Assembly: GCF_009467795.1 (NCBI RefSeq)
Contig: NZ_WIAX01000006.1
Coordinates: 1-64,000, forward strand
From: Nesterenkonia halophila
Lineage (GTDB): Bacteria > Actinomycetota > Actinomycetes > Actinomycetales > Micrococcaceae
Direction of reading: 5' to 3'
Length of the DNA stretch: 64,000 nucleotides
A program made the translations under genes and the position numbers. Shown one piece after another: positions 17,976 through 30,765 of this stretch (positions are counted from its first letter, which is position 1; each line of letters opens with the position of its first letter). The notes beneath the pieces were generated by a model. The model had not been told where the DNA came from and ran no database searches. It saw only the letters and a list, made by a program, of their open reading frames with translations.

Positions 17976-19451
<1,476 letters not shown>

Positions 19452-19530
19452 GCAGGGGGGTCCTTCGTCTCGGGAGTGGGCGTCGACGGCGCGCCGGCGG
19501 GACGCCGTCGCGCGCGGACGGGTCGGGACC

Positions 19531-19536
19531 AGCGTA
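19531..19536 (-). promoter_or_regulatory. -10 box TACGCT upstream of ahcY
   Basis: TACGCT on the minus strand, leaving a leader of roughly 75 nt before the ahcY ATG. Confidence 0.35.
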
Positions 19537-19653
19537 TCGCGGGGCCTCCGCCGGCGGCGGCCCCGCACGTCACCGGGGGTCACCGGTGCGACGGCGAGCT
19601 CCCGCCGGACGCGCCGGTCCGGACGGGCGGCCAGGACGGGCGGGGCGGAGCGC

Positions 19654-20472
19654 TCAGGTGTAGGGCAGCGCGTGCAGCCGCCGGCCCAGCCGCGCGCTGC
19701 GCTCCTGCCGGCGCACCAGCCGCCGATACTCGCGATTGCGCCGCTCCGCCATCACCGCGGTGAGGAACTCCACAGTGCTCGACGGCGGGGGCGGCGGCAT
19801 GACGTGCGGGCGCAGCTCGGCGGCCAGCTGGTCGGCGCTGCGCCGCAGCGCCTCCGAGTCCACGGCCCTGCCCCCGGAGTCCAGGCGCTGCAGCAGCCGG
19901 GAGATGCGCAGCGCGAGGCCGTCGGGGACGCGGCCGACGTCGGCGATCTGCGTCCACGAGGACAGGTGCTGCGGCACCGGCAGCATCATCGGCTTGGTCT
20001 GCGGCTGGCGGGTGAGCACCCCGTAGGTGCCGGCCAGCATGTCGCCCAGGCGCTTGCCGCGGGAGTTGAGCAGCCCGCAGAGCAGCGGCAGCAGGCCCAG
20101 GCTCAGCACCGCCTCGGGCCAGAGCAGCAGCCCGCGGACGATCGCATGGCGCAGCCGCACCGGGCCGCCGTCGTCGCGGACCACCCGCACGCCCAGGATC
20201 AGTCGGCCCAGCGAGCGGCCTCGGGAGAGCGCCTCGACCGTCACCGGGGCGACGACGAAGCAGAGGATCAGCGTGCTCAGCATGGCCGCCTGGGTCAGGG
20301 CGGGGTCCGGGGAGACGGCCATTGTCCCGGAGAAGGCGCCGAAGAGCAGCAGGATCCCGAGATAGGCGGCCAGATAGACGGCCAGGTCGATCATCAGCGA
20401 CAGTCCGCGGACGAGGACCGAGGCCGCCGGCAGGTCCAGCTGGACCGCCTCACCGGTGATCACTGTGCGCAT
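19654..20472 (-). CDS. RDD family membrane protein
   Basis: Protein of 272 aa. The N-terminal ~150 residues form an RDD domain with about three or four helices ([71 protein letters not shown]) and the landmarks [19 protein letters not shown] and [12 protein letters not shown]. The C-terminal ~110 residues are soluble, with many Arg pairs. It is divergent from a SpoIIM-type gene across only 51 bp, a pairing common in actinobacteria. TAGGCT ends 6 nt before the ATG (leaderless). Function unknown; a transport or envelope role is supposed. Confidence 0.9.
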
Positions 20473-20478
20473 GCGGCC

Positions 20479-20484
20479 AGCCTA
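20479..20484 (-). promoter_or_regulatory. -10 box TAGGCT of the RDD gene (leaderless)
   Basis: TAGGCT ends 6 nt before the RDD start; it shares a 51-bp gap with the SpoIIM promoter. Confidence 0.5.
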
Positions 20485-20510
20485 GCGGCTCTTCGGCGCA
20501 TGAGCTGAGT

Positions 20511-20516
20511 TAGGGT
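20511..20516 (+). promoter_or_regulatory. -10 box TAGGGT of the SpoIIM-type gene (leaderless)
   Basis: TAGGGT ends 7 nt before GTG 20524, with no ribosome site between. Confidence 0.55.
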
Positions 20517-20523
20517 CGGGGAT

Positions 20524-21513
20524 GTGGACATCGATGCCTTCGTCGCCGTGCACCAGGGGGAGTGGGACCGCCTGGCCGAGCTCTCCTCCCGCACCCGACC
20601 GACTGCCGACGAGGCGGACGAGCTGCTGCGGCTCTACCAGCGCACGTCCACCCATCTGTCGATGATCCAGGCCCACGACCCCGGCGGCGCAGTCGCCGCC
20701 GGTCTCTCGGCGCGGCTGGGCCGGGCGCGCGGCCGGCTCACCGGCGGCGGGGACAATCTGCTGGTCAGCATCGCCCGCTTCGTCATGCAGGTGCTGCCGG
20801 CGGCCTTCCACCGCGTCGCCGTCCCGACAGTGGTCGTCGGCGCACTGTTCCTGCTGGTCTCCGGAGCCTTCGCGCTGTGGACCCAGCACCATCCGCAGAT
20901 CGAGCTGCTGATGTCCGACGAGGCCCGGGCCGCCTACGCCCGCGACGACTTCGTCGATTACTACTCGGACCACCCCAACGCCTCCTTCGCCGCTCAGGTG
21001 TGGACCAACAACGCCTGGATCGCCGCGCAGGAGGTGACCCTCGGGGTGACCGGCGTCTGGGTGCCGGCGGTGCTGCTGGTCAATGCGCAGGGACTGGGGA
21101 TCTCAGCCGGGGTGATGTTCGAGCAGGGCGAGGCATGGACCTTCTGGGCCCACATCCTGCCGCACGGTCTGATGGAGCTCACTGCGGTCTTCGTCGCCGG
21201 CGCGGCCGGGCTGCGGATCTTCTGGGCCTGGGTCTCCCCGGGACGCCGGCGGCGGCTCACCGCGCTGGCGGAGGAGGGCCGCCGGCTGATCACCGTCGCG
21301 ATCGGCCTGACCGCCGTGCTGCTGGTCAGCGGCGTCGTCGAAGGCTTCGTCACCCCCAGCGACCTGCCGGCCGCGGTGAAGATCCTCATCGGCGCCGCGG
21401 TGCTGGCGGGCTACTGGACCTACACGCTGGTCCTCGGCGGTCGAGCCCGCCGGGCGGGCATCACCGGCGACCTGGCCCGCTACGATTCCGGAGCCCACGA
21501 GCTCACCGCCTGA
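20524..21513 (+). CDS. Stage II sporulation protein M (SpoIIM) superfamily membrane protein
   Basis: Protein of 329 aa. A soluble N-terminal ~90 residues (DIDAFVAVHQGEWDRLAELSSR.., LYQRTSTHLSMIQAH) precede about five membrane helices, including VAVPTVVVGALFLLVSGAFALW, VWVPAVLLVNAQGLGISAGVM, WTFWAHILPHGLMELTAVFVAGAAGL and two near the C-terminus. The NN.W and HGLMELTAVFVAG motifs are typical of the superfamily. In non-sporulating actinobacteria these proteins pair with RDD and MoxR/DUF58 genes and are not linked to sporulation. GTG start chosen from the -10 spacing. Confidence 0.9.
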   Translation: MDIDAFVAVHQGEWDRLAELSSRTRPTADEADELLRLYQRTSTHLSMIQAHDPGGAVAAGLSARLGRARGRLTGGGDNLLVSIARFVMQVLPAAFHRVAVPTVVVGALFLLVSGAFALWTQHHPQIELLMSDEARAAYARDDFVDYYSDHPNASFAAQVWTNNAWIAAQEVTLGVTGVWVPAVLLVNAQGLGISAGVMFEQGEAWTFWAHILPHGLMELTAVFVAGAAGLRIFWAWVSPGRRRRLTALAEEGRRLITVAIGLTAVLLVSGVVEGFVTPSDLPAAVKILIGAAVLAGYWTYTLVLGGRARRAGITGDLARYDSGAHELTA

Positions 21514-21627
21514 TCCGCGTCGGTCATCCGCCTGATCACCGACGGAGACGAGCCGGCGACGCGGCCGGAACCACGCGGATCCTCGACTCTCCGGCAGGTC
21601 TGACCGGGCGCGACGGGCTCTGCCCCG

Positions 21628-21633
21628 TACCCT
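21628..21633 (+). promoter_or_regulatory. -10 box TACCCT of the DUF1461 gene
   Basis: TACCCT lies about 34 nt before the ATG, giving a short leader containing the GGAGAGG ribosome site. Confidence 0.4.
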
Positions 21634-21666
21634 CGACAGTGGACATCACTGCGTGGAGAGGCAACC

Positions 21667-23163
21667 ATGAGCGCGAACTCACAGCGGCCCGAGCACGGGG
21701 AGCCGCAGGACACCGGAGGCGGATTCGAGTCCGGCCTCGACTACGGGGCGTTCGCCGAGGACGCGCCGGACTATCCGGAGGACCGGCCGGACGCGGCGAC
21801 GCCGCAGGAGCCGGAGGAGGGGTCCCCCGAGGCCGCGGACGACGCCGGCGCGGCGCCGACGTCCGACGACGAGACCACTGAGACCGCCGGGCGCGCGGCC
21901 GCGGCCGGCGAGCAGCCCACTGAACCGATCGGCGGGGCGTCCGCTCCGCGCGCCGAGGATCAGCCCACGGCCGCGATGCCGCGCACTGCGGCCTCCGACG
22001 ACGCGACGCGTCCGCTGGGCGACGTCGCGACCGAGGCGACCGGCGGGCAGTCGGAGGGCTCTTCGCAGGCCGGCTCCGCATCGACCCCGGCCCCGGCGCC
22101 GGCCATGGACACCGAGCCGGCCCCGGCCCCGGCCATGGACACCGAGCCGGCCCCGGCGCCGGCCGTGGACACCGAGCCGGCCCCCGGCGCGCAGCCGGCG
22201 AGCGGCGGCGCCGACGAGCAGGAGACCGCCACGCTGAGCGCGGCCCGCGAACCGCAGCCGAGCGAAGCCTCCCGCGACCTGCCCTATGAGCCGGCCGCCG
22301 CGGGCGCGGCCGGTGCGGCCGGCGGCTCCGCAGTCGTCGGGCGCACGGCCGCCGACGAGGCGATCACCGATCAGGACCTCGACGAGGAGGTCGCCAAGGA
22401 CAAGCGCGGCGCCTCGCGCCTGCTGCAGGTGCTGCTGGCGATCTTCGTCCCGCTGCTGGTGCTGGCCGCCGCAGTCCGGCTGGTGGCCTCGCCGCTGTTC
22501 GTCTGGCTGGAGTACCGGCTGCCGCACTTCCCGGCCGACGAGCTCGGATTCGGCACCGACGACCGGACCCTCTACGGCTCCTACGGCGTGGACTACCTGT
22601 TCAACGGCGCCGACTCCCGGTACCTCTCGGAGCTCGCCGTCGAGGGCGGTCCGCTGTTCACCGAGGCCGAGGTCGGGCACATGGCCGACGTCAAGCGGGT
22701 CATGCTCATCGGCATGGCCGTCGCGGCGGTGCTGCTGATCGTCACACTGATCTTCGTGCTGCTGCTGCGCCGGTGGCGCCCCGGGGCGGTCGCCCGCGGA
22801 TTCTTCTCCGCCGCCTGGGTCGCCCTGGTGCTCGTCGCCGCGCTGGTGACGCTGGCGGTGCTGGGCTGGCAGGACTTCTTCTCCGGCGTGCACGGGGTGC
22901 TCTTCGCGGAGGGCAGCTGGCAGTTCCCGGCAGACTCGACGCTGATCCGACTCTACCCGGGGCAGTTCTGGATGGACGCCGCCATCGGCGTCGGCGGCCT
23001 CATGGTGCTCATCGCGCTGCTGCTGCTGATCATCACCTGGCCGACGAAGAAACGCCGCGCCCGCCGTCGGGCCCGGCTCGAGGAGGTCCAGGAAGCCCGC
23101 CGCGAGAAGCTGGTCGCCGAGCTGACCAAGGACGCCGAGTACTCCAACGCCGCGCGCGGCTGA
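21667..23163 (+). CDS. TIGR01906/DUF1461 family membrane protein with disordered N-terminus
   Basis: Protein of 498 aa. Residues 1-240 are acidic, Ala/Pro/Thr-rich and surely disordered, including three copies of a ten-residue APAPAMDTEP-type repeat. Residues ~250-470 contain the membrane part: LLQVLLAIFVPLLVLAAAVRLV, an extracytoplasmic loop with YLFNGADSRYL, GPLFTEAEVGHMADVKRVM (the EHM.DVK block of the family), and three further helices including MVLIALLLLIITW. The tail is strongly basic. GGAGAGG precedes the ATG. The molecular role of DUF1461 is not known. Confidence 0.85.
   Translation: MSANSQRPEHGEPQDTGGGFESGLDYGAFAEDAPDYPEDRPDAATPQEPEEGSPEAADDAGAAPTSDDETTETAGRAAAAGEQPTEPIGGASAPRAEDQPTAAMPRTAASDDATRPLGDVATEATGGQSEGSSQAGSASTPAPAPAMDTEPAPAPAMDTEPAPAPAVDTEPAPGAQPASGGADEQETATLSAAREPQPSEASRDLPYEPAAAGAAGAAGGSAVVGRTAADEAITDQDLDEEVAKDKRGASRLLQVLLAIFVPLLVLAAAVRLVASPLFVWLEYRLPHFPADELGFGTDDRTLYGSYGVDYLFNGADSRYLSELAVEGGPLFTEAEVGHMADVKRVMLIGMAVAAVLLIVTLIFVLLLRRWRPGAVARGFFSAAWVALVLVAALVTLAVLGWQDFFSGVHGVLFAEGSWQFPADSTLIRLYPGQFWMDAAIGVGGLMVLIALLLLIITWPTKKRRARRRARLEEVQEARREKLVAELTKDAEYSNAARG
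22091..22180. repeat. 30-bp coding tandem repeat, three copies
   Basis: Three near-identical 30-bp units (22091, 22121, 22151) encode the Pro/Ala repeat in the disordered part of the DUF1461 protein; only two positions differ between copies. Likely to vary in copy number. Confidence 0.9.
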
Positions 23164-23187
23164 GCCGACCGCACCGTCTCCCTCGCA

Positions 23188-23228
23188 GAGATCCGGGCCC
23201 GCAGGGGAATCCTGCGGGCCCGGATCTC
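23188..23228. terminator. Hairpin terminator after the DUF1461 gene
   Basis: Perfect 18-bp stem (23188-23205 with 23211-23228) and a GGAAT loop, followed by GTTCT rather than a T run. It lies 25 nt after the stop codon. Confidence 0.8.
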
Positions 23229-23307
23229 GTTCTACCCGGTGTTCGACAGTGTGCTCGAGCCTGAGGCCGGGCGCCCGGCGCCTGCCGAGCGAGTCCGGCA
23301 CGTCCAG

Positions 23308-23313
23308 TACACT
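23308..23313 (+). promoter_or_regulatory. -10 box TACACT upstream of panD
   Basis: TACACT lies between the terminator and panD, leaving a leader of about 90 nt. Confidence 0.4.
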
Positions 23314-23411
23314 GTCGGGGTCCGCGGGCCGCCGCGGCGCGTGCCGGGGCGCCCCGACGGGCCGCCGGGACCACGAGCACGACCGAGTCCTCCGTCGAAA
23401 GCGAGCGCCTC

Positions 23412-23834
23412 ATGCTGAGAACCGTCATGGGCGGCAAGATCCACCGCGCCCGGGTCACCCAGGCCGACCTGCACTACGTGGGGTCGATCACTGTGGACCA
23501 GGATCTGCTCGACGCCGCCGGGATCGTCGAGGGGGAGAAGGTCCAGGTCGTCGACATCGCCAACGGCGCGCGCCTGGAGACCTACACCATCGCCGGCGAC
23601 CGCGGGACCGGCATCATCGGCATCAACGGCGCCGCCGCGCACCTGGTCGGCACCGACGACCTGGTCATCATCATCTCCTACCGGATGGGCACCGACGCCG
23701 AGATCGCCGAGCACGTCCCGCAGGTCGTCCACGTCGACGCCGACAACCGGATCGTGCAGCTGGGGAACGACCCCGCCGAGCCGGTGCCCGGCTCGGCCGA
23801 TCAGCTCTCCCCGCGCAGCCCGCTGCCGGCCTGA
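23412..23834 (+). CDS. panD: Aspartate 1-decarboxylase
   Basis: PanD, 140 aa, makes beta-alanine from aspartate for pantothenate and CoA. The proenzyme cleaves itself at Gly24-Ser25 to form the pyruvoyl cofactor; the sequence has YVGSITVD at that place. Other family landmarks: [20 protein letters not shown] at the start, [19 protein letters not shown] and [10 protein letters not shown]. The last ~20 residues are a variable tail. panB and panC are not adjacent here; the next genes are the two GT29-like proteins, with their own promoter 32 nt after the panD stop. Confidence 0.97.
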
Positions 23835-23865
23835 GCCGAGACGGGCCGGCGTCGCCGCCGGCCAG

Positions 23866-23871
23866 TAGACT
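23866..23871 (+). promoter_or_regulatory. -10 box TAGACT of the TPR-GT29-like pair
   Basis: TAGACT ends 9 nt before ATG 23881, giving a leader of at most a few bases. No ribosome site is visible. Confidence 0.45.
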
Positions 23872-23880
23872 CGCGTCACG

Positions 23881-25863
23881 ATGCTGAAACCACTCGTGCT
23901 GGCCGCCGACGTCGGCCGTCGCGCCGTCCGCACCGCCGCGAAGGCCCCGGGGGCCGATCTCGCCCTGGCCCGCGCCGTCGTCGCCGCCGGCCGCACAGTC
24001 CCCGCGGCCCGGGGCGACGCGCTGCGCCCGGACCGTTCGCGGCTGGGGGCGCTGCACGAGCAGGCCGCCGACGTGCTCTTCGCCGCCAACCCGGACGGGG
24101 CCGCGCGGCTGCTGGCCGCGACCGACGTCGCGAGGATCGACGACGCGGCCCGGCTCGAGCGCCTGGCCCGGCGATTCCTGGCCGTGGACGAGTACGAGGC
24201 CGCGCTGCGCATGCGTCGACGGGCCGTCGACCTGCAGCCGGAGAACCCCGTGCGCTGGGGCGCCCTCGCGGCGTCGCTGCGCCGCTCCGCCGCCGGCGGG
24301 CTGGTCCGTGACTCCGTCGCCGGCCTCGTCGAGGGGCCGGTGGCCGAGGAGGAGGCCGCGCGCCGCGCGCTGGCCCGTGCCGTGGAGCTGGCCGGCGACG
24401 ACCCGGAGATCCGCTTCGAGCTCGGCTGCCTGACCTTCGACCAGGGTCGGACCGAGGACGGGCTGGATCACCTGCAGGCCGCCGTGGCCCGCCGGCCCGA
24501 CGCCCGATGGCTGATCGAATACGCCCACCGCGCCCGACGGCCCCACGTGCTGCAGCTGGATCGTGCGCTGGACGCCTATGAGCAGGCCCTCGACCGGGCG
24601 CCGCACTCCAGCGTCGCGCTGCGCGGGGTCATCTCGGCCGGCGCCCGGGCAGGCCAGGACTGGCCGCGGCTCTGGGCCGCGGCGATGCGCTACGAGGCCG
24701 GCCTCCGCCGCGGGCTGGCGCGGCGGCAGGCGCTGGCCGCCGAGCTGGAGCCGCTGGTGACCGCGCCGCAGCTCGACGCCGAGCGGGCCGAGACGATCAT
24801 GGCGCTGCTCTTCCACGCCGAGACCCGCGGCATCCGGCTGCGCTGGGCGACCACGTCGCTCATCGTGCTGCGGCTGCAGTTCGCCGGTCGTCTGCGCGAC
24901 GGCTTCGCCCTGCGCCGGAGACTGGCCGAGCGCACGCTCGACTGGCTCGGCCGCTCCTCGGGCGGCCACGCTGGGCACCGGCAGAAGGTCCTCGCCGCGC
25001 TGGTGGCCCTCGGCCGCGAGGAGGAGGCGCTGGAGCTGATCGACCCGCTGCCCTGGGAGCCCGACAGTCGGAGGGGGCGTCGCCAGCTGGAGAAGCTGCG
25101 CGCCGACGCCCAGCTGGCCGCCGGGGAGCCGGGCCCCTATCTGGAGTACTCCTCGCGGGTCCGCTCCGAGGTGCCGCTGCCCGGCGAGGAGCGCATGGCC
25201 GCGCTGGTGGCCGGCCGCCGCGTCGCCGTCGTCGGACCGGCGCAGACCGACGATCAGCTGGGCGAGCTCATCGACACCTACGACGTCGTCGTCCGCACCC
25301 GGTTCCAGGCCGACTTCGTCGCCGAGAACGCCGCACGCCTCGGATCCCGCACCGACATCACCTACTACGCCGGCCGCGACCAGGAGCTGCTCGCCGCCGA
25401 GGGCGCCGCGGCCGCCGAGGCCGGGGATCTGGCGCTGGTGGTCGCCCGACCGCTGAGCATGGACGCCGCCCGCGGACTGCTGGGCGGCGAGCTGCCGGAG
25501 TGGCTGCGCGTGGCGCGCCACGACTTCTCGCTCTGCTACCACGGCGCCCTGCTGGGGGTGCCGCGCATCGTCTACGACGTGCTGCAGTTCGATCCGGCCG
25601 AGATCGCGCTGTTCCACGCCGACTTCTACGCCGGATCGCAGGCCTACTCCGCCGGGTACTGGGAGGAGCAGCACATCGGCTTCGGACCGTACTCGAAGAT
25701 GAACGACGTCATCGCCAGCCACGACCTCGCCGTCGACTTCCGGTTCATGCAGGCCGTCGCCGCCACCGGCCGGCTCACCGCCCACGGGGCCTCCGCCGAA
25801 GTCATGGCGCTGGACCTGGACGACTATCTGGAGCGGGTCGAGGCCGCTCCGCTCTTCGGCTGA
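23881..25863 (+). CDS. TPR-like protein with C-terminal GT29 (sialyltransferase)-like domain, copy A
   Basis: Protein of 660 aa that I could not match to a named family. Residues ~60-430 are helical with TPR-like units (YEAALRMRRRAVDLQPENP; AYEQALDRAPHSSVALRGV). From ~445 the sequence follows the layout of GT29 sialyltransferases. A sialylmotif-L-like block reads RRVAVVGPAQTDDQLGELID followed by TYDVVVRT. RTDITYYA comes next, then a motif-S-like block around LLGVPRIVYDVLQFDPAEI with LFHADFYAG. A motif-VS-like HDLAVD (H614-x4-D619) closes it. No membrane helix or signal peptide is clear. It stands 9 nt before a shorter paralogue. A role in a surface sialic-acid-like (nonulosonate) glycan is an inference; remote GT29 homology rests on motif order only. 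Confidence 0.6.
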   Translation: MLKPLVLAADVGRRAVRTAAKAPGADLALARAVVAAGRTVPAARGDALRPDRSRLGALHEQAADVLFAANPDGAARLLAATDVARIDDAARLERLARRFLAVDEYEAALRMRRRAVDLQPENPVRWGALAASLRRSAAGGLVRDSVAGLVEGPVAEEEAARRALARAVELAGDDPEIRFELGCLTFDQGRTEDGLDHLQAAVARRPDARWLIEYAHRARRPHVLQLDRALDAYEQALDRAPHSSVALRGVISAGARAGQDWPRLWAAAMRYEAGLRRGLARRQALAAELEPLVTAPQLDAERAETIMALLFHAETRGIRLRWATTSLIVLRLQFAGRLRDGFALRRRLAERTLDWLGRSSGGHAGHRQKVLAALVALGREEEALELIDPLPWEPDSRRGRRQLEKLRADAQLAAGEPGPYLEYSSRVRSEVPLPGEERMAALVAGRRVAVVGPAQTDDQLGELIDTYDVVVRTRFQADFVAENAARLGSRTDITYYAGRDQELLAAEGAAAAEAGDLALVVARPLSMDAARGLLGGELPEWLRVARHDFSLCYHGALLGVPRIVYDVLQFDPAEIALFHADFYAGSQAYSAGYWEEQHIGFGPYSKMNDVIASHDLAVDFRFMQAVAATGRLTAHGASAEVMALDLDDYLERVEAAPLFG

Positions 25864-25872
25864 GGTGCGGCC

Positions 25873-27567
25873 ATGGCGGTGAACCTCCACCACCTGCGGT
25901 ACAAGATCGCCGCGGCGGCGGTGCTCAAGGCCGGGGTGCGACGGGCGGCGCGGCTGCCGGGGGCGCGCGGCGCGGCGTCCGCCCTCGCCGAGCGGCTGCA
26001 GCCCGTCGGCGAGCCCACCGGCTCGCACCGCGGGATCGCGGCCACGCTGCTGCGGCAGACCGTGGGGCCTAGTCCCGGAGGCGACGCCGTCGCCCAGGAC
26101 GTCGTGGCCGGCCTGCTCCCCGCCGCGGCGCCGGAGCCCGCCCCGGATCTGCCCGCCCTGCGCGCCCGCGCCGACCAGGACCCCTCCGCCGGGAACCTCA
26201 TCGCCGTGGCCGCGGCGCTGCGGAGGTCCTATGTCGCCGACTTCGAGGCCTCCGCCGCCGCCTATGAGCAGGCCCTCGCGGCGAACCCCCGGGATCTGCG
26301 CGCCGTCGAGGGAGTGCTGGTCAGCGGAGCGCGGTCGCACTACGACTGGCCGCGGATCTGGCGCGCCGCGGCGACGCTGAAGCCGTCGCGGGGCCCGCTG
26401 GTCGCCGGCGCGCCCCTCTGGGAGGCGGTGGACCCGCTCTTCGCCCAGGACCCGGAGGCCGAGACGGTCGGCCGGGCGGTGCAGGCGCTCGACGCCCGCG
26501 CCGAGGAGGTCCCGCGGCTGCACCAGCTGCTGATCGAGACGCTGGCGGCGCGGCTGCAGCTGCTGGGCGCCTTCCGCGCCGGCGCCCGGATGCGCCGGAT
26601 GATGGCGGTCGACCGCGTCCGTGAGCTGGGCGGTATCCCGCTGGAGTCGGGCCTGTGGCTGAAGCACCTGCTGGGCGCGCTGGCACATCTCGAGGAGGAC
26701 GAGCGGCTGGCCCGCACGGCGGCACGGCCCCCGGTGGACCGCGCCGACCCGATCGTCGCCCGCCAGGCCGCGGCGCTGCAGGCCGACGCCGCCCTGTGGT
26801 CCGGCGATCCCACGCCGCTGCACGACCACGTCGCCGCCCGCGCCGCCGAGCTGACGCTGCCCGGCGAGGAGCGGATGCGCGAGCTGGTGGCCGGCCGGCG
26901 GGTCGCCGTCGTCGGCCCGGCCGCGCCGGACGCCGCCGTGGGCGAGCTCATCGACTCCCACGACGTCGTCGTGCGGACCAATCTGCGGCGGCCCCCGGGC
27001 CCCGAGGCCGCCGAGGAGATCGGGGCCCGGACCGACATCGCATACTACGCGGTCATCGACGTCGCCCGGACCGGCGAGCAGATCGCCCGACTGATCGAGG
27101 ACGGCGAGCTGCGGCTGGCGGTCACCCGCCCGCACGCGCTGCCGTTCTTCGGCGGCGATCTCGCCGGCCTGCCCGCAGGGCTCCGCCTGGCGCGCACCGA
27201 ATTCGGCCTGTACTTCCGCGGGGCCCCGATGGGCGTGCAGCGGATCCTCTACGACCTGCTGCAGTTCGCGCCGGCGGAGATCTCGCTGTTCCATGCCGAC
27301 TTCTACGTCGGCCCCGAGGTGACCACGGCCGGCTATCGCGACGAGGCGGCCAGCTTCGGCCCGCACTCGCTGGCCAACGACCCGGTGGTGATGCACGACC
27401 TCAGCTTCGAGTTCCGGTTCACCCGCCGGCTCGTCGGCGCCGGACTCGTCACCCCGCACGGCCGGGCGGCCGAGGTGCTGGCGCTGGACGAGGAGGACTA
27501 CCTCGCCCGGCTGGAGACGGGGCCGCTGGCCGCCGGACTGCCGGGAGGCGGGCTCCGACGGCGATGA
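25873..27567 (+). CDS. TPR-like protein with C-terminal GT29 (sialyltransferase)-like domain, copy B
   Basis: Paralogue of the preceding gene, 564 aa, with about 100 residues less in the helical part. It shares YEQALAANPRDLRAVEGVLVSGAR..DWPRIWRAA, then GEERMRELVAGRRVAVVGPA, GELIDSHDVVVRTN, ARTDIAYYA, and the block around GVQRILYDLLQFAPAEI with LFHADFYVG. HDLSFEFRF gives H508-x4-E513, the exact H-x4-E spacing of sialylmotif VS, where copy A has Asp. A GAGG ribosome site precedes the ATG and the two genes are surely one operon. The difference at the VS position suggests the copies differ in activity or acceptor. Function inferred only. Confidence 0.6.
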   Translation: MAVNLHHLRYKIAAAAVLKAGVRRAARLPGARGAASALAERLQPVGEPTGSHRGIAATLLRQTVGPSPGGDAVAQDVVAGLLPAAAPEPAPDLPALRARADQDPSAGNLIAVAAALRRSYVADFEASAAAYEQALAANPRDLRAVEGVLVSGARSHYDWPRIWRAAATLKPSRGPLVAGAPLWEAVDPLFAQDPEAETVGRAVQALDARAEEVPRLHQLLIETLAARLQLLGAFRAGARMRRMMAVDRVRELGGIPLESGLWLKHLLGALAHLEEDERLARTAARPPVDRADPIVARQAAALQADAALWSGDPTPLHDHVAARAAELTLPGEERMRELVAGRRVAVVGPAAPDAAVGELIDSHDVVVRTNLRRPPGPEAAEEIGARTDIAYYAVIDVARTGEQIARLIEDGELRLAVTRPHALPFFGGDLAGLPAGLRLARTEFGLYFRGAPMGVQRILYDLLQFAPAEISLFHADFYVGPEVTTAGYRDEAASFGPHSLANDPVVMHDLSFEFRFTRRLVGAGLVTPHGRAAEVLALDEEDYLARLETGPLAAGLPGGGLRRR

Positions 27568-27580
27568 CTCCGCCGGAGGT

Positions 27581-27604
27581 GTGGGAACGCGAGCGCTTTC
27601 CCAC
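27581..27604. terminator. Possible hairpin after the GT29-like pair
   Basis: GTGGGAA (27581-27587) and TTCCCAC (27598-27604) form a 7-bp stem with a 10-nt loop, 13 nt after the stop codon. A T-rich stretch overlaps the second arm. Modest evidence for termination. Confidence 0.35.
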
Positions 27605-27616
27605 AGTTTCCACGGG

Positions 27617-27645
27617 GCCATCGTGGCGACGAAGCCATCGTGGCG
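27617..27645. repeat. 12-bp direct repeat
   Basis: GCCATCGTGGCG occurs twice with a 17-nt period, about 35-60 nt before the -10 box of the histidine phosphatase gene. Could be paired operator half-sites; nothing else supports it. Confidence 0.4.
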
Positions 27646-27677
27646 GCGGGGGGGGCAGGGCGGGGCGCGCCGCCCGG

Positions 27678-27683
27678 TAGGCT
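27678..27683 (+). promoter_or_regulatory. -10 box TAGGCT of the histidine phosphatase gene
   Basis: TAGGCT lies 53 nt before the ATG; the leader contains the AGGAAGG ribosome site. Confidence 0.45.
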
Positions 27684-27736
27684 GGCGAGCTCGCGCAGCA
27701 GGCCCGTCGGAGGGACGGGGGAGAGGAAGGGATCGC

Positions 27737-28504
27737 ATGATCCGGGTGATCTGTGTCCGGCACGGGGAGACGGAGTGGAACATCGCCCACCGCCTGCAGG
27801 GCCGGTCGGCGGTGGATCTCGCGGCCAGCGGGGTCGCGCAGGCCCGTGCGGCCGGCCGCTACGTGCGTGGGCAGCATCCGACCGCCGGCTACGTCTCGCC
27901 GCTGTCCCGCACTCGGGCCACCTTCGACGCCTTCGGCCTGGACTTCGAGCCGACGGAGCGGGCCGATCTCGTCGAGCAGAGCCTCGGGGACTGGGAAGGT
28001 CGGAAGACCGCCGCAGTGCGCGACGGCGACGCCGAGCGGTACCGGGCGTGGAAGCGCGGGGAGGGCGCGCCGCCGCGCGGCGAGCCGACCGACGCCGTCG
28101 TCGAGCGCATGACCCGGGCGTTCTGCGGCATCGTCCGCGCCGCCGCCGAGCTGCCGGCCACCCCCTCGGTCGATGCCGAGCAGGACCTGCGCACCGTGGT
28201 CCTCGTCTCGCACGGCACCGCCACCAAGGCGCTGCTGGAGGGGCTCGGCCTGGCAGAGCGCTCGCAGGTCATCTCCCTGACGGCGGGGGCGATCAGCGTG
28301 GTCGACGTGCCGCTGCACGACGGACCGCTGAGTTCCTCGCTGCCCGGCGGGGGCGCCGCCGTCGCCGGCGGGGCCGAGGCCGAGGCGGAGATCATCCGTG
28401 GGCTGGACGACGCGCAGATCCGCTCCCGGGCCAGGCTGCGGATGTACAACCTGTCCCCGGAGGTGCTGGCGACGGCGGCCGGAACGGCGGAGACGTCCGC
28501 CTGA
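27737..28504 (+). CDS. Histidine phosphatase (phosphoglycerate mutase-like) family protein
   Basis: Protein of 255 aa of the histidine phosphatase superfamily. The catalytic motif RHGETEWN sits at the N-terminus, followed by LSRTRATF, the proton-donor stretch VEQSLGDWEGR, and VLVSHGTATKALLEGL with the second catalytic His. These are features of phosphatase-type members rather than the glycolytic mutase. The C-terminal ~70 residues are a variable acidic extension. Start fixed by AGGAAGG upstream of ATG 27737. Substrate unknown. Confidence 0.92.
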   Translation: MIRVICVRHGETEWNIAHRLQGRSAVDLAASGVAQARAAGRYVRGQHPTAGYVSPLSRTRATFDAFGLDFEPTERADLVEQSLGDWEGRKTAAVRDGDAERYRAWKRGEGAPPRGEPTDAVVERMTRAFCGIVRAAAELPATPSVDAEQDLRTVVLVSHGTATKALLEGLGLAERSQVISLTAGAISVVDVPLHDGPLSSSLPGGGAAVAGGAEAEAEIIRGLDDAQIRSRARLRMYNLSPEVLATAAGTAETSA

Positions 28505-28525
28505 GGCCGCCGGCGGGTCGGAGCC

Positions 28526-29182
28526 TCAGATCGTGACGTGGCCCTGCGGGGAGCGGAAGGTCACCGACATGATCCCGGGCGTGCCCGACGGGGCGACCCA
28601 GTCGACGTCGACGTCCTCGAAGGGATCGGCGTCGGGGCAGGACAGCCAGTCGGCCACGCGGTCGCGGGAGCCGGCGATGGACAGGCGGACCAGCTCGGCC
28701 TCCGGCTCGTAGGCCTGCGAGGGGTGGAGGTCCTCGGTGCCGTCGTCCCAGCGCAGCAGGTAGGGGACCTGGGGATCGGCGATGAGCCCCTTGATCCCGA
28801 TCTGCTGCCAGGTCAGCTCCTGGCCGTCGGGGAACTTGCGGTTGCCGGGGACGGCGCGGCGGCCCAGCCGCTCCTCAAAGGGGGCCAGGTCGTCGACGGT
28901 GACGCACCAGCCCATCCAGCCTCCGCCGACCTGCGAGCGGTTGCGCACCGCCTGGCCGAAGGGCGCCTTGTCCGCCGAGGGGTGGTCGAGCACCTCGACG
29001 ACTTCGAGGTACTGACGGTTCGCCAGCGGGATGATGGCGTTGCGCGTGCCGAAGCGCGGATGGATGCCGCCTCTGACGCGCTCCACCCCGAGTGCGGACA
29101 CGATCCGGTCGACTGTGGCGTCCATGCCATCGGGGCCCACCGCATAGGAGACGTGATCCAGACGCATCATGGGTGCATTCAT
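28526..29182 (-). CDS. VOC/glyoxalase-like domain protein
   Basis: Protein of 218 aa similar to the Glyoxalase_3 group: MRLDHVSYAVGPDGMDATVDRIVSAL at the start, IHPRFGTRNAIIPLANRQYLEVVEVLDHP, then MGWCVTVDDLAPFEERLGR, typical of a VOC fold with a metal-binding His and Glu (LDHVSY, YLEVVEV). The last part (DVDWVAPSGTPGIMSVTFRSPQGHV) may be a degenerate second repeat. CACGAT ends 6 nt before the ATG, a weak leaderless -10. Convergent with the phosphatase gene and divergent from SURF1. Substrate unknown. Confidence 0.85.
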   Translation of the reverse strand: MNAPMMRLDHVSYAVGPDGMDATVDRIVSALGVERVRGGIHPRFGTRNAIIPLANRQYLEVVEVLDHPSADKAPFGQAVRNRSQVGGGWMGWCVTVDDLAPFEERLGRRAVPGNRKFPDGQELTWQQIGIKGLIADPQVPYLLRWDDGTEDLHPSQAYEPEAELVRLSIAGSRDRVADWLSCPDADPFEDVDVDWVAPSGTPGIMSVTFRSPQGHVTI

Positions 29183-29188
29183 GCTCCC

Positions 29189-29194
29189 ATCGTG
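29189..29194 (-). promoter_or_regulatory. Possible -10 box CACGAT of the VOC gene
   Basis: CACGAT ends 6 nt before the ATG and keeps the A at position 2 and T at position 6; weaker than the other leaderless boxes. Confidence 0.3.
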
Positions 29195-29318
29195 ACACCG
29201 CCGTGGTCCGTCTCACGAATCCGGGCCGGTTCATGACGCCGGCCGCTGACCTGGGGTGATCTTCTACGGCATGTAGAAACACCCGGTCGGCGGCACGCGG
29301 CGCGGGGCCGCGGGCACG

Positions 29319-29324
29319 TATCCT
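29319..29324 (+). promoter_or_regulatory. -10 box TATCCT of the SURF1 gene (leaderless)
   Basis: TATCCT ends 6 nt before GTG 29331. Confidence 0.55.
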
Positions 29325-29330
29325 TGTCAG

Positions 29331-30278
29331 GTGCTCAAGACCGCTCTGCAGCCGAGATGGCTGGCGACCCTCGCCCTGGCGCTGATCCTCGCGACGGTGT
29401 TCGTGGTGCTCAGCGCCTGGCAGTTCGGCCGCTCGCAGATCGACGACGACGCCACCGGCGCGGACCCGGCGACGGCCGGCGCCTCACTCGAGGAGGCGCT
29501 GGACGACCCGACGCCGCTGACCGAGGTGATCCGCCCCGGCGAGCCGATGGGCGGTCCGCAGGCCGACACCGTGGTGAGCCTGGAGGGGGAGTTCGTCGAG
29601 GGCACCGAGGTGCTGATCGACCAGCGGCTCCAGGATGATCGCGAGGGCTACTGGGCGGTGGCCGCCTTCGCCGTCGACGGCGCCCCGGAGGGCCAGGTCA
29701 TCCCGGTGGTCCGCGGCTGGGTGGCCGATCCCGACGACGCCGACGCCGCGCCCTCGGACGATCAGCTCGCCGTGGTCGGCCGACTGCTGCCCACGGAGGC
29801 CCCGGAGGCCGAGCCGCGGCCCGACGGCCGTGTGCTGCCCTCGCTCTCCGTGGCCGAGCTGATCAACCGGTGGGACACCTCCTCCTACTCCGGCTTCGTC
29901 GTGGCCTTCTCCGCGCAGCCGGCGGAGGCGTCCGAGTCGGCCGGGCCGGCGGGGGAGCTCGACGGCGCTCAGGTCGACGCCGCCGCCGAGGACTCGCCGC
30001 TGGAGAGCGTCTGGGTCGGTCCGCAGCCTGAGGGCCCGCAGATCCACTGGCTCAACGTCTTCTACGGGGTGGAGTGGACGTTCTTCGCCGGCTTCGCGTG
30101 CTATCTGTGGTGGCGATTGGTCAGGGACGACCACGAGCGGCGCCTGGAGGAGGAGCGGCTGGATCGCGAGTGGGAGGAGCAGTGGCGCCGCGAGCAGCTG
30201 GCCCGACGCGCCGAGCAGTCCGGCCGCCCGGCCGGAGAGCCAGGATCTGATGGACCCGAGGAGCAGACGCATGACTGA
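29331..30278 (+). CDS. SURF1 family cytochrome oxidase assembly protein
   Basis: Membrane protein of 315 aa with the SURF1 layout: an N-terminal helix (WLATLALALILATVFVVLSAWQFGRSQ), a soluble extracytoplasmic domain, and a C-terminal helix (NVFYGVEWTFFAGFACYLWWRLVRDD). Family landmarks seen are AWQFGR, VIPVVRGWV, and HWLNVFYGVEW. The family helps assemble the haem a-containing cytochrome aa3 oxidase. The tail is long, charged and likely coiled. GTG start set by the -10 box. It overlaps the DUF3817 start by 8 nt. Confidence 0.92.
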   Translation: MLKTALQPRWLATLALALILATVFVVLSAWQFGRSQIDDDATGADPATAGASLEEALDDPTPLTEVIRPGEPMGGPQADTVVSLEGEFVEGTEVLIDQRLQDDREGYWAVAAFAVDGAPEGQVIPVVRGWVADPDDADAAPSDDQLAVVGRLLPTEAPEAEPRPDGRVLPSLSVAELINRWDTSSYSGFVVAFSAQPAEASESAGPAGELDGAQVDAAAEDSPLESVWVGPQPEGPQIHWLNVFYGVEWTFFAGFACYLWWRLVRDDHERRLEEERLDREWEEQWRREQLARRAEQSGRPAGEPGSDGPEEQTHD

Positions 30279-30765
30279 CCAGCCGACCCCCGACGACGAC
30301 CTCCCTCCCGCCCCGCCGCGGCCGAAGCAGCGCCGCTTCCAGGGCACCATCGCCCAGATCTCCGGGGCGCTGGGCTTCTACCGCGTCTGCGCCTACGTCA
30401 CCGGCATGATGCTGCTGCTGCTGGTGGCCAAGATGATCATGACCTACGCCGTCGGCGTCGAGCTCTACGCCGGCGGCACCGCCGAGGACGGTTCGGCCAA
30501 TGCGCTGGGCTTCCACAGCATCGGCTCGGTGGTCGGCGGGCAGGCCGTCTCGTACTGGGTGGCGGTGGTCCACGGCTGGATCTACGTGGTCTACCTGATC
30601 TCCGGCTTCCGGCTGTGGTTCCTGATGCGCTGGCCCTTCGGCCGGCTGGCGACGATCGTGCTCGGCGGCGTGGTGCCGTTGTTGAGCTTCATCGTCGAGC
30701 GCCGCATCGCCGGCGAGGCCCGCCGCGAGATGGAGCAGAACCCCGAGGCCGCCCGCCGGTACTGA
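30271..30765 (+). CDS. DUF3817 family membrane protein
   Basis: Protein of 164 aa. After a Pro-rich start come three helices (FYRVCAYVTGMMLLLLVAKMIM; AVVHGWIYVVYLISGFRLW; LATIVLGGVVPLLSFIVERR). GFYRVCAY, VHGWIYVVYL and the E-R pair in the last helix are typical of DUF3817, which commonly lies between SURF1 and guaA in Micrococcales. GAGGAG precedes the ATG, inside the end of SURF1. Role unknown. Confidence 0.9.
   Translation: MTDQPTPDDDLPPAPPRPKQRRFQGTIAQISGALGFYRVCAYVTGMMLLLLVAKMIMTYAVGVELYAGGTAEDGSANALGFHSIGSVVGGQAVSYWVAVVHGWIYVVYLISGFRLWFLMRWPFGRLATIVLGGVVPLLSFIVERRIAGEARREMEQNPEAARRY

Follow-up and report, generated by a model that had tools for sequence, protein, structure and literature searches.

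Two adjacent genes of Nesterenkonia halophila encode proteins in which a TPR solenoid at the N-terminus is followed by a C-terminal domain of ~225 residues. Profile searches, bridging sequences, and AlphaFold models combined with structure searches place this C-terminal domain in the GT29/GT42 sialyltransferase fold group; its best structural match is mammalian ST3Gal1. The two proteins, copies A and B, are probably cytosolic CMP-nonulosonate transferases that build a nonulosonate-containing, teichulosonic-acid-like wall polymer, likely of the glycerol-phosphate type. Their status as true GT29 enzymes is unproven, because the family lacks an invariant His in motif III and, in most of its domains, the donor-contacting Asn. 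The genes are located in a stretch of 64,000 nucleotides, here called the window, and the assembly from which it was taken is 65.5% complete. The pair, its parts and its neighbors are as follows, with the basis of each assignment in parentheses.

23412..23834, + strand: neighboring panD (aspartate decarboxylase), 46 bp upstream and outside the system
23881..25863, + strand: copy A, TPR plus GT29-like protein of 660 aa (ORF, codon-position GC)
24148..25197, + strand: TPR-like helical region of copy A, about residues 90-439 (sub-cut-off TPR matches; homology with the copy B model, family profile)
25198..25860, + strand: GT29-like domain of copy A, residues 440-660 (AF2 model, structure search)
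25216..25305, + strand: L-like motif of copy A (motif coordinates)
25342..25368, + strand: GSRTDITYY block of copy A, end of the L region (motif coordinates)
25555..25635, + strand: S-like motif of copy A (motif coordinates)
25654..25668, + strand: GYWEE of copy A, possible counterpart of motif III without the His (putative placement)
25720..25737, + strand: VS-like HDLAVD of copy A (motif coordinates)
25873..27567, + strand: copy B, TPR plus GT29-like protein of 564 aa (ORF, codon-position GC)
25873..25950, + strand: N-terminal basic helix of copy B, residues 1-26 (helix 8-26 in the AF2 model, at low to medium confidence)
26134..26853, + strand: TPR solenoid of copy B, about residues 88-327 (AF2 model, family profile)
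26863..27540, + strand: GT29-like domain of copy B, about residues 331-556 (sub-cut-off Pfam GT29, AF2, structure search)
26896..26985, + strand: L-like motif of copy B, ending in RTN, with the donor Asn retained (motif coordinates)
27022..27048, + strand: GARTDIAYY block of copy B (motif coordinates)
27232..27312, + strand: S-like motif of copy B (motif coordinates)
27331..27345, + strand: GYRDE of copy B, possible counterpart of motif III without the His (putative placement)
27394..27411, + strand: VS-like HDLSFE of copy B (motif coordinates)
27737..28504, + strand: neighboring histidine phosphatase

The copies are adjacent paralogues, as an earlier note on this DNA had claimed: both open reading frames were found, separated by only 9 bp, and their products are 39% identical over the full length and 52% over the C-terminal domain. 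The GC content at the three codon positions (0.82/0.51/0.94 in copy A and 0.83/0.53/0.95 in copy B) follows the pattern of real genes. An antisense ORF of 1370 aa (23671-27783), picked by codon-position analysis, was rejected, since A and B carry the coding GC3 pattern and have conserved homologues. The first 45 residues of copy B have a net charge of +7, and the hydrophobic moment of its N-terminal helix does not exceed the protein's own 95th percentile. In relatives, a homologue of the histidine phosphatase is found 3' of the pair, directly in one locus (L136) and with one gene in between in two others (L128 and L134).

The C-terminal domain of copy B alone matched Pfam GT29 (PF00777) with an E-value of 1.7e-4 and a score of 21.5 bits, i.e., below the gathering score of 23 bits. 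That of copy A alone had no Pfam match, and its assignment is based on its 52% identity to the domain of copy B and on its own structure model. Within the family, 19 of 29 domains matched Pfam GT29 at E<=1 (best 9.5e-6), so that the resemblance goes beyond chance. When the profile of the 29 domains was searched against the sequences in the PDB, ST3Gal1 (best E 6.8e-4) and ST6Gal1 ranked first; an ABC-transporter pair (E 0.02) outranked ST8Sia3 and another chain of ST6Gal1. A PHROGs search reached a best E-value of only 0.055, and neither copy was named as a transferase by NCBIfam. The gap to the known enzymes is bridged by a set of 19 sequences from viral contigs and one from a MAG, which matched the Nesterenkonia profile at E 4.4e-23 (hhalign) and, in a search of the PDB, ST3Gal1 at E 7e-12; all ten viral-contig relatives scanned passed the Pfam GT29 cut-off.

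Structural comparison pointed in the same direction. In the AF2 model of full-length copy B, the GT29-like domain has a pLDDT of 88.6, and its best structural match is ST3Gal1 (2wnf; Z 12.4, rmsd 3.5, 188 residues). The model of copy A, made of 25168-25860, has a pLDDT of 85.4, and its best match is again ST3Gal1 (2wnb; Z 12.8, rmsd 3.0, 172 residues). The first 19 rows of the latter search are all GT29 or GT42 structures; among non-sialyltransferases, archaeal HPPK and SteA reached Z-scores of 10.4 and 8.3, respectively. Thus, GT29 structures lead for both copies, which indicates the sialyltransferase GT-A-like fold and bears out the GT29-type fold proposed in the earlier note, whilst sequence identity to known sialyltransferases is low (10-19%).

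The enzymes of CAZy GT29/Pfam PF00777 (ST3Gal1, ST6GalNAc2, ST8Sia3, and ST6Gal1) share with the Nesterenkonia copies the fold, the L-like motif, the position of the S-like block, and the VS His. However, in the Nesterenkonia copies, TPRs replace the transmembrane stem, the disulfide Cys pair is absent, and the window copies remain below the Pfam cut-off. GT42 (CstI/CstII) belongs to the same fold group, with a structural Z-score of up to 11.6 (copy A domain with CstI), but the Nesterenkonia sequence profile lists GT29 chains and not a single GT42 chain at E<=10 in the PDB. The GT29-like proteins from viral contigs (L047-L126), many of them open frames that span about 190-320 aa, contain the same domain; in the bridging set, the donor Asn is kept in 17 of the 20 rows and PN[T/S]G in 11.

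All TPR matches in copy A were below the Pfam cut-offs (best E 4.5e-4). A helical stretch in the AF2 model of copy B runs from about residue 88 to residue 339, and the profile of the full-length family matches designed TPR proteins and the TPRs of OGT in the PDB; model and profile together uphold the fusion to a TPR region. TPR matches, likewise below the Pfam cut-off, are found upstream of a GT29-like domain in three loci of other Actinomycetes (L216, L217, and L220), which, unlike the Nesterenkonia proteins, keep RFNSY and PTTG-type motifs. The TagF-like capsule polymerases Cps3D and Cps7D likewise combine a TPR solenoid with a transferase that builds a polymer, but their catalytic domains are of the GT-B type and not of the sialyltransferase fold (PMC11666461).

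Of 30 Nesterenkonia genomes, 20 contain the family, which the same search detected in none of 28 genomes of other genera. A PF00777 scan of the N. halophila genome was empty, although both copies are present; the scan is therefore blind to the Nesterenkonia family, and the number of PF00777 matches above the cut-off in the class, at least 6/394, is a lower bound. One scan of viral contigs yielded 108 stretches that encode relatives. With these, and with GT29 described in alpha-, gamma-, and epsilon-Proteobacteria (PMC5811610), the statement in the earlier note that GT29 is scarce in bacteria is exaggerated. In the available text of that source, only Proteobacteria and one archaeon are named as prokaryotic holders. 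According to its description, the proteobacterial enzymes have the same order of sialylmotifs and are devoid of the Cys pair and of a transmembrane segment, whereas the Nesterenkonia family is actinobacterial and fused to TPRs (PMC5811610).

The L-like, S-like, and VS-like blocks are present in both copies as originally described. Family-wide counts refer to 29 aligned domains; from the alignment (A2), the broken copy L021 of genome G016 was left out, and 21 of the 51 family matches had no fetched locus and fell outside it. A set of 48 distinct Nesterenkonia domains was collected later from fetched loci. The available tree was rooted on one very long branch and left the orthology of the window's copy A to all A copies of relatives unsettled; it was not used. 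The L motif was aligned to that of ST3Gal1 by HMMER without guidance. The GxRTD columns are invariant and the VS His, H614 in copy A and H508 in copy B, is present in all 29 domains, in agreement with the H-x4-E motif of GT29. Among the 48 distinct domains, 37 end this motif with Glu and 11 with Asp, with Asp in copy A and Glu in copy B; the ten A-type rows of the alignment are divided equally (five Asp, five Glu).

Other positions deviate from the known enzymes. At the position of the donor-contacting Asn, which comes after the L-motif Arg, 24/29 domains have Arg and 3/29 have Asn; copy A is among the former and copy B among the latter. In the S-like block, which lines up with the S motif of the viral-contig relatives, the Gly is kept and the Thr preceding it is missing in all 29 domains. 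The segment that separates the VS His from the S-like block contains no invariant His in these domains: the highest number of His residues at any column in this segment is 13/29, at a GP-H/Y position where Tyr is found in eight. Motif III is defined by a His-Tyr pair, and its His, H299, acts as the catalytic acid and is essential in human ST3Gal1 (PMC6884586). Judged by sequence, GYWE/GYRD may be a remnant of this motif. The Cys pair for the disulfide between the L and S motifs was not found: copy B contains no Cys at all, and copy A has two in 660 residues, neither in a motif. This pair is likewise reported to be missing in bacterial GT29 (PMC5811610). The changes at the motif III His, the donor Asn, and the S-motif Thr, together with the Pfam scores of the window copies, argue against strict GT29 membership; the three changes could reflect another donor or lost activity.

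The earlier note had also proposed, from the Asp in the VS motif of copy A, that the copies may form an active/regulatory pair. A regulatory meaning of this residue is not supported: Asp occurs in 11 of the 48 domains and in half of the A-type rows, and its position corresponds to E321 of human ST3Gal1, where E321Q is, along with W301F and E302Q, among the mutants said to keep 25-80% activity (PMC6884586). On the same grounds, i.e., Asp/Glu variation across the family and the activity ascribed to the E321Q mutant, the Asp was rejected as a mark of inactivity.

The genomic context connects the family to nonulosonates and wall polymers. A NeuB-type nonulosonate synthase was detected in 19 of 20 family-positive and in none of 10 family-negative genomes (Fisher p 3.7e-7, uncorrected for shared ancestry), the family-positive genome without a detected NeuB being G029; within the genus, this co-occurrence may go back to one island that was gained or lost once. 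A TagB/F-like glycerophosphotransferase (PF04464) is present in 20/20 and 1/10 genomes, respectively. In 19 of the 20 genomes, a CMP-sugar synthetase gene is located no more than 8 kb away from a copy, measured between gene starts, the exception being the genome of the window; the count omits 23 weak matches in frames of 461-626 aa, taken for GlmU (the best name in the five that were checked), and one 130-aa fragment in G016. In the island of genome G002, a bifunctional CMP-sugar synthetase gene is situated between two GT29-like genes, with gaps of 53 and 103 bp, and the island also contains genes for a PF01467 cytidylyltransferase-like protein ("TagD-like" being our own label), an LCP protein, and a polysaccharide pyruvyltransferase.

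In N. halophila itself, the gene set of a teichulosonic-acid pathway (NeuB-type synthase, CMP-sugar synthetase, and wall-polymer genes) is found on contig C24, which carries genes for NeuB, a PseF-like cytidylyltransferase, RgpF, GT2, and a TagF-like protein and is unlinked to the A/B pair on another contig. Thus, the search for neuA/neuB-like genes proposed in the earlier note identified NeuB-family and CMP-sugar synthetase genes in the same genome. The sole cytidylyltransferase-type match on the window's contig (55176-55592) is GlmU, over its cut-off. The NeuB and NeuA-like proteins of this genome score below the NCBIfam equivalog cut-offs, so that the sugar is given only as Kdn-, Kdo-, or Neu/Pse-like. 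Searches of the 30 genus genomes with PF06002, PF07922, and PF11477, which we take to be GT42, GT52, and GT80, gave zero matches, without a positive control. An N-terminal domain of ~250 residues fused to NeuB in this genus was considered as a second sialyltransferase but not confirmed as one, with profile probabilities of 7% and 0.5% against two GT29-like sets; it gave a single match to PDB sequences (E 0.84) and was not found in G029 and the 10 family-negative genomes in a search without a positive control.

One alternative is that the sialyltransferase fold was kept for another donor or chemistry; a different wall precursor linked to CMP or CDP, for instance CDP-glycerol, might be used. The altered motif III, donor Asn, and S-motif Thr would fit this, as would the TagF-like genes, which co-occur with the family as tightly as NeuB, and the structural resemblance of the copy A domain to HPPK and SteA. 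We nevertheless consider it rather unlikely, because NeuB and a CMP-synthetase need a matching transferase, for which the three Pfam families searched, without a positive control, offered no candidate, and GT29-like genes directly adjoin CMP-sugar synthetase genes. The chances are smaller still that one or both copies are a catalytically dead scaffold or regulator of a wall-polymer complex. Copy A differs from copy B, which keeps the Glu and the Asn, at both the VS and the donor position, and TPR domains are known to mediate protein contacts (PMC11666461), but the Asp/Glu variation in the family, the activity ascribed to E321Q (PMC6884586), and the conservation of the VS His, GxRTD, and the S-like block in both copies argue against such a role. 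Mere fold likeness of an unrelated nucleotide-binding domain with an unrelated function, for which the low identity, the sub-cut-off scores of the window copies, and the interleaved ABC-transporter pair could be quoted, is very improbable, as profile, bridging families, and structure concur and the context in relatives is a nonulosonate/wall island.

According to the favored explanation of A and B as CMP-nonulosonate transferases, a CMP-nonulosonate (Kdn-, Kdo-, or Neu/Pse-like) would be made by the NeuB-type synthase and the NeuA-type cytidylyltransferase, whose genes lie elsewhere in the genome, and the cytosolic copies would move the nonulosonic acid from its CMP form onto a precursor of a cell-wall glycopolymer. 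The conserved VS His would serve as the catalytic base. The acceptor polymer probably also contains glycerol phosphate, considering the TagF-type gene, and the product would then be a teichulosonic-acid-like wall polymer. Teichulosonic acid is described in S. coelicolor and Kribbella (PMC7831098; PMC6113628); that of S. coelicolor is phosphate-free, in contrast to the glycerol-phosphate polymer guessed for Nesterenkonia (PMC7831098). The TPR solenoid may keep hold of the chain as it grows, or serve to dock the two enzymes onto one another and onto other polymer enzymes, by analogy with the role that TPRs are thought to have in TagF-like capsule polymerases (PMC11666461). The two copies would probably make two linkages or use two acceptors. 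More tentatively, and short of what we would call probable, the pair could be a TPR-scaffolded transferase/polymerase with a remodeled donor site that places nonulosonic acids in an actinobacterial wall polymer. With Arg instead of the Asn for CMP-sialate and without an invariant motif III His, the chemistry at this site may differ from that of animal sialyltransferases.

If correct, this would single out a specific candidate for the enzyme that incorporates nonulosonate into the wall polymers of Gram-positive bacteria; in the available text of the teichulosonic-acid literature, no enzyme is named for this step (PMC7831098; PMC6113628). A sialyltransferase-fold domain would then function as a cytosolic polymer enzyme tethered by TPRs. 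The family, for whose bacterial origin the arguments have come mainly from sequences of Proteobacteria (PMC5811610), would gain an actinobacterial branch in which the donor site is altered. Within Nesterenkonia, the island-bearing species, such as N. massiliensis and N. sedimenti, and the island-free species would offer a natural comparison for the role of the polymer.

The pair of paralogous genes in the window, copy A and copy B, is separated by a gap of 9 bp, and both genes display the GC distribution over codon positions that is typical of coding sequence. Their products are 39% identical overall and 52% identical over the C-terminal domain.

23881-25863, forward strand, copy A, open reading frame of 660 aa
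25873-27567, forward strand, copy B, open reading frame of 564 aa

The L-, S- and VS-like blocks that the earlier note recognized in the C-terminal domain are found in both copies and in the order named. In Pfam, the domain of copy B alone matched GT29 with an E-value of 1.7e-4 and 21.5 bits (gathering score 23), and that of copy A alone found no match. When 29 domains of the Nesterenkonia family of such proteins were aligned (A2), 19 matched GT29 at E ≤ 1 (best E 9.5e-6), and the three other Pfam families listed had 4, 1 and 1 matching members. The A2 profile retrieved ST3Gal1 (6.8e-4) and ST6Gal1 first among all PDB sequences, followed by an ABC-transporter pair (E 0.02) and then by more ST6Gal1 and ST8Sia3. 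The Pfam GT29 cut-off was passed by all 10 scanned relatives from viral contigs, which were picked out of 80 loci kept from 108 related stretches. The A5 profile, built from 20 relatives of which viral contigs supplied 19, matched the A2 profile with an E-value of 4.4e-23 and, in the PDB, ST3Gal1 (7e-12) and GT42 (4e-7). Judged from these profiles, the viral-contig relatives are a bridge between the Nesterenkonia domains and GT29. GT29-like domains are often carried by viral contigs (L047-L126), the 108 stretches having come from one scan; many of the frames are 190-320 aa long and some about 580-760 aa.

Structure prediction bears out the proposed GT29 fold, with GT29 structures leading for both copy B and the copy A domain. 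The AlphaFold model of full-length copy B (pLDDT 88.6, pTM 0.90) matched ST3Gal1 best (2wnf; Z 12.4, rmsd 3.5, 188 residues), followed by ST6GalNAc2, ST8Sia3, CstI and ST6Gal1 (over residues 306-531), after which TPR proteins appear from Z 10.7 down. In Foldseek, full-length copy B retrieved sialyltransferases, with TM-scores of 0.19-0.25 by query length, interspersed with TPR proteins such as OGT. For the copy A domain (pLDDT 85.4, pTM 0.87), the first 19 rows of the structure search were all GT29 or GT42, led by ST3Gal1 2wnb (Z 12.8, rmsd 3.0, 172 residues). Among non-sialyltransferases, an archaeal HPPK reached Z 10.4 and SteA 8.3 and 7.5; the remaining sialyltransferases scored 9.7-10.2, and the lower rows comprised one at Z 5.6 and others shown at ≤4.0. 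Foldseek TM-scores of this domain were 0.47-0.51 by query length in the first seven rows; therefore, the match to sialyltransferases is real but diverged.

In human ST3Gal1, catalysis is reported to rely on the motif III His as the acid and on the VS His as the base, with the donor contacted by motif L Asn residues (PMC6884586). The VS His is present in 29/29 A2 domains. Between the S-like block and VS, these 29 domains have no invariant His, the fullest column containing 13 His and 8 Tyr. The L-motif Arg is followed by another Arg in 24 of them, by Asn in 3 (copy B, L003 and L004) and by Gln and Gly in 1 each; unlike most Nesterenkonia domains, 17 of the 20 A5 rows retain Asn. Ahead of the S-motif Gly, all 29 have Leu, Met or Gln and none has Thr. 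Because of these three features, strict membership of GT29 is not claimed. Of the GT29 identity proposed earlier, what stands is that the family has a sialyltransferase-type fold, homology to GT29 and a conserved VS base His. The suggestion that copy A, whose VS motif ends in Asp rather than Glu, is a regulatory copy gains little support, since Asp is found in 11 of 48 distinct domains and the Glu-to-Gln mutant of human ST3Gal1 is among those said to retain 25-80% activity (PMC6884586).

The TPR-like helical region is backed by the full-length family profile, which matched designed TPR proteins (E 4.6e-52) and the TPRs of OGT in the PDB, and by the copy B model, which has a helical solenoid at about residues 88 to 327. 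TPR matches of copy A remained under the Pfam cut-offs. Neither protein contains a strongly hydrophobic segment (best 19-residue means 1.4 and 1.07), and both are, therefore, probably cytosolic as far as sequence can tell. The basic N-terminal helix of copy B might contact the membrane; its hydrophobic moment lies within the protein's own 95th percentile.

One search found the family in 20/30 Nesterenkonia genomes and in 0/28 genomes from outside the genus. Across 394 genomes drawn evenly from the class, the A2 profile matched two Nesterenkonia and, weakly, two other loci: L210, from an actinomycete, where a long further region follows the GT29-like domain, and L211 (the same place as L220), where TPR matches precede it. 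Pfam GT29 exceeded its cut-off in 6/394 of these genomes, a lower bound as it misses Nesterenkonia itself; TPR matches, all under cut-off, occurred in three of five such proteins scanned (L216-L220). Other arrangements were seen as well: a prokaryotic 1215-aa frame fuses GT29 to GT2 (L044:3108-6752), a 1220-residue open frame contains a family domain (L135:11001-14660) and is either a fusion or overlong, and in Nesterenkonia pannonica both copies are broken over several frames by sequencing errors or decay (L042). The titles and abstract openings listed from open-licence papers mentioned neither a TPR-GT29 protein nor a nonulosonate polymer of Nesterenkonia.

Within the genus, presence of the family coincides with that of a NeuB-family synthase (19/20 family-positive vs. 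0/10 negative genomes; Fisher p 3.7e-7) and of a TagF-like protein (PF04464; 20/20 vs. 1/10; p 7e-7), p-values that ignore shared descent. In 19/20 genomes, the starts of a CMP-sugar synthetase gene and a family gene are ≤8 kb apart, a count omitting 23 weak PF02348 matches taken for GlmU (5 checked). NeuB shares a contig with a family gene in 13/20, and a TagF-like gene lies ≤20 kb away in 16/20. Enrichment of both SpsE (sialic acid synthase) and TagB/SpsB is listed for one and the same group of Nesterenkonia strains in a comparative genomics table (PMC8875376). In the relative G002, these genes form an island, in which the gene for a bifunctional CMP-sugar synthetase is placed between two family genes, 53 bp from the first and 103 bp from the second, accompanied by genes for NeuB, a PF01467 cytidylyltransferase-like protein (labeled TagD-like here), a TagF-like protein, LCP, two pyruvyltransferases, TupA-like and GT8 proteins. 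The island of G002 and G019 is bordered by genes for AdoHcy hydrolase or RDD, SpoIIM and Lit at one end and for histidine phosphatase, glyoxalase and SURF1 at the other; both borders are homologous to the window flanks. Transposase-like ORFs, recognized by eye within the G002 island (L128:4435-7130), suggest past mobility. At L128:10879-12699 lies a gene that matches GmrSD_C (29.1 bits, cut-off 23) and whose start resembles a signal peptide; this type (cluster c5) adjoins the pair in several relatives (also L134, L137, L203 and L205), and no such gene was called next to the window pair.

Compared with L127 and L128, positions 17976-30765 of the window have the flanks without the island; the pair is retained, with panD ahead of it. 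A search for neuA/neuB-like genes elsewhere in this genome, whose assembly is 2.19 Mb and 65.5% complete, had been proposed, and contig C24 indeed carries genes for NeuB and a PseF-like cytidylyltransferase, together with RgpF, GT2 and TagF-like genes and sugar genes that are RmlA- and RmlB-like by eye. This NeuB (L189:11690-13282) has an extra N-terminal domain. Such a fusion to a conserved domain of ~250 residues, with the motifs GKGPS ... INDAERI ... VGFDF and without significant match in Pfam, NCBIfam or PDB sequences, occurs at 18 loci of the genus (L189, L140-L158).

Teichulosonic acid is reported to occur in Kribbella (PMC6113628), and the TPR domains of TagF-like capsule polymerases to be needed for elongation and processivity (PMC11666461); the TPRs of copies A and B may have a role as well. 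The most economical reading is that copies A and B are nonulosonate transferases for a wall polymer, with a donor and an acceptor that we infer. They would use a CMP-activated nonulosonic acid as donor and attach the sugar to a wall polymer precursor, probably one with glycerol phosphate, unlike the teichulosonic acid of S. coelicolor, a polymer that is described as free of phosphate and composed of galactose and Kdn (PMC7831098).
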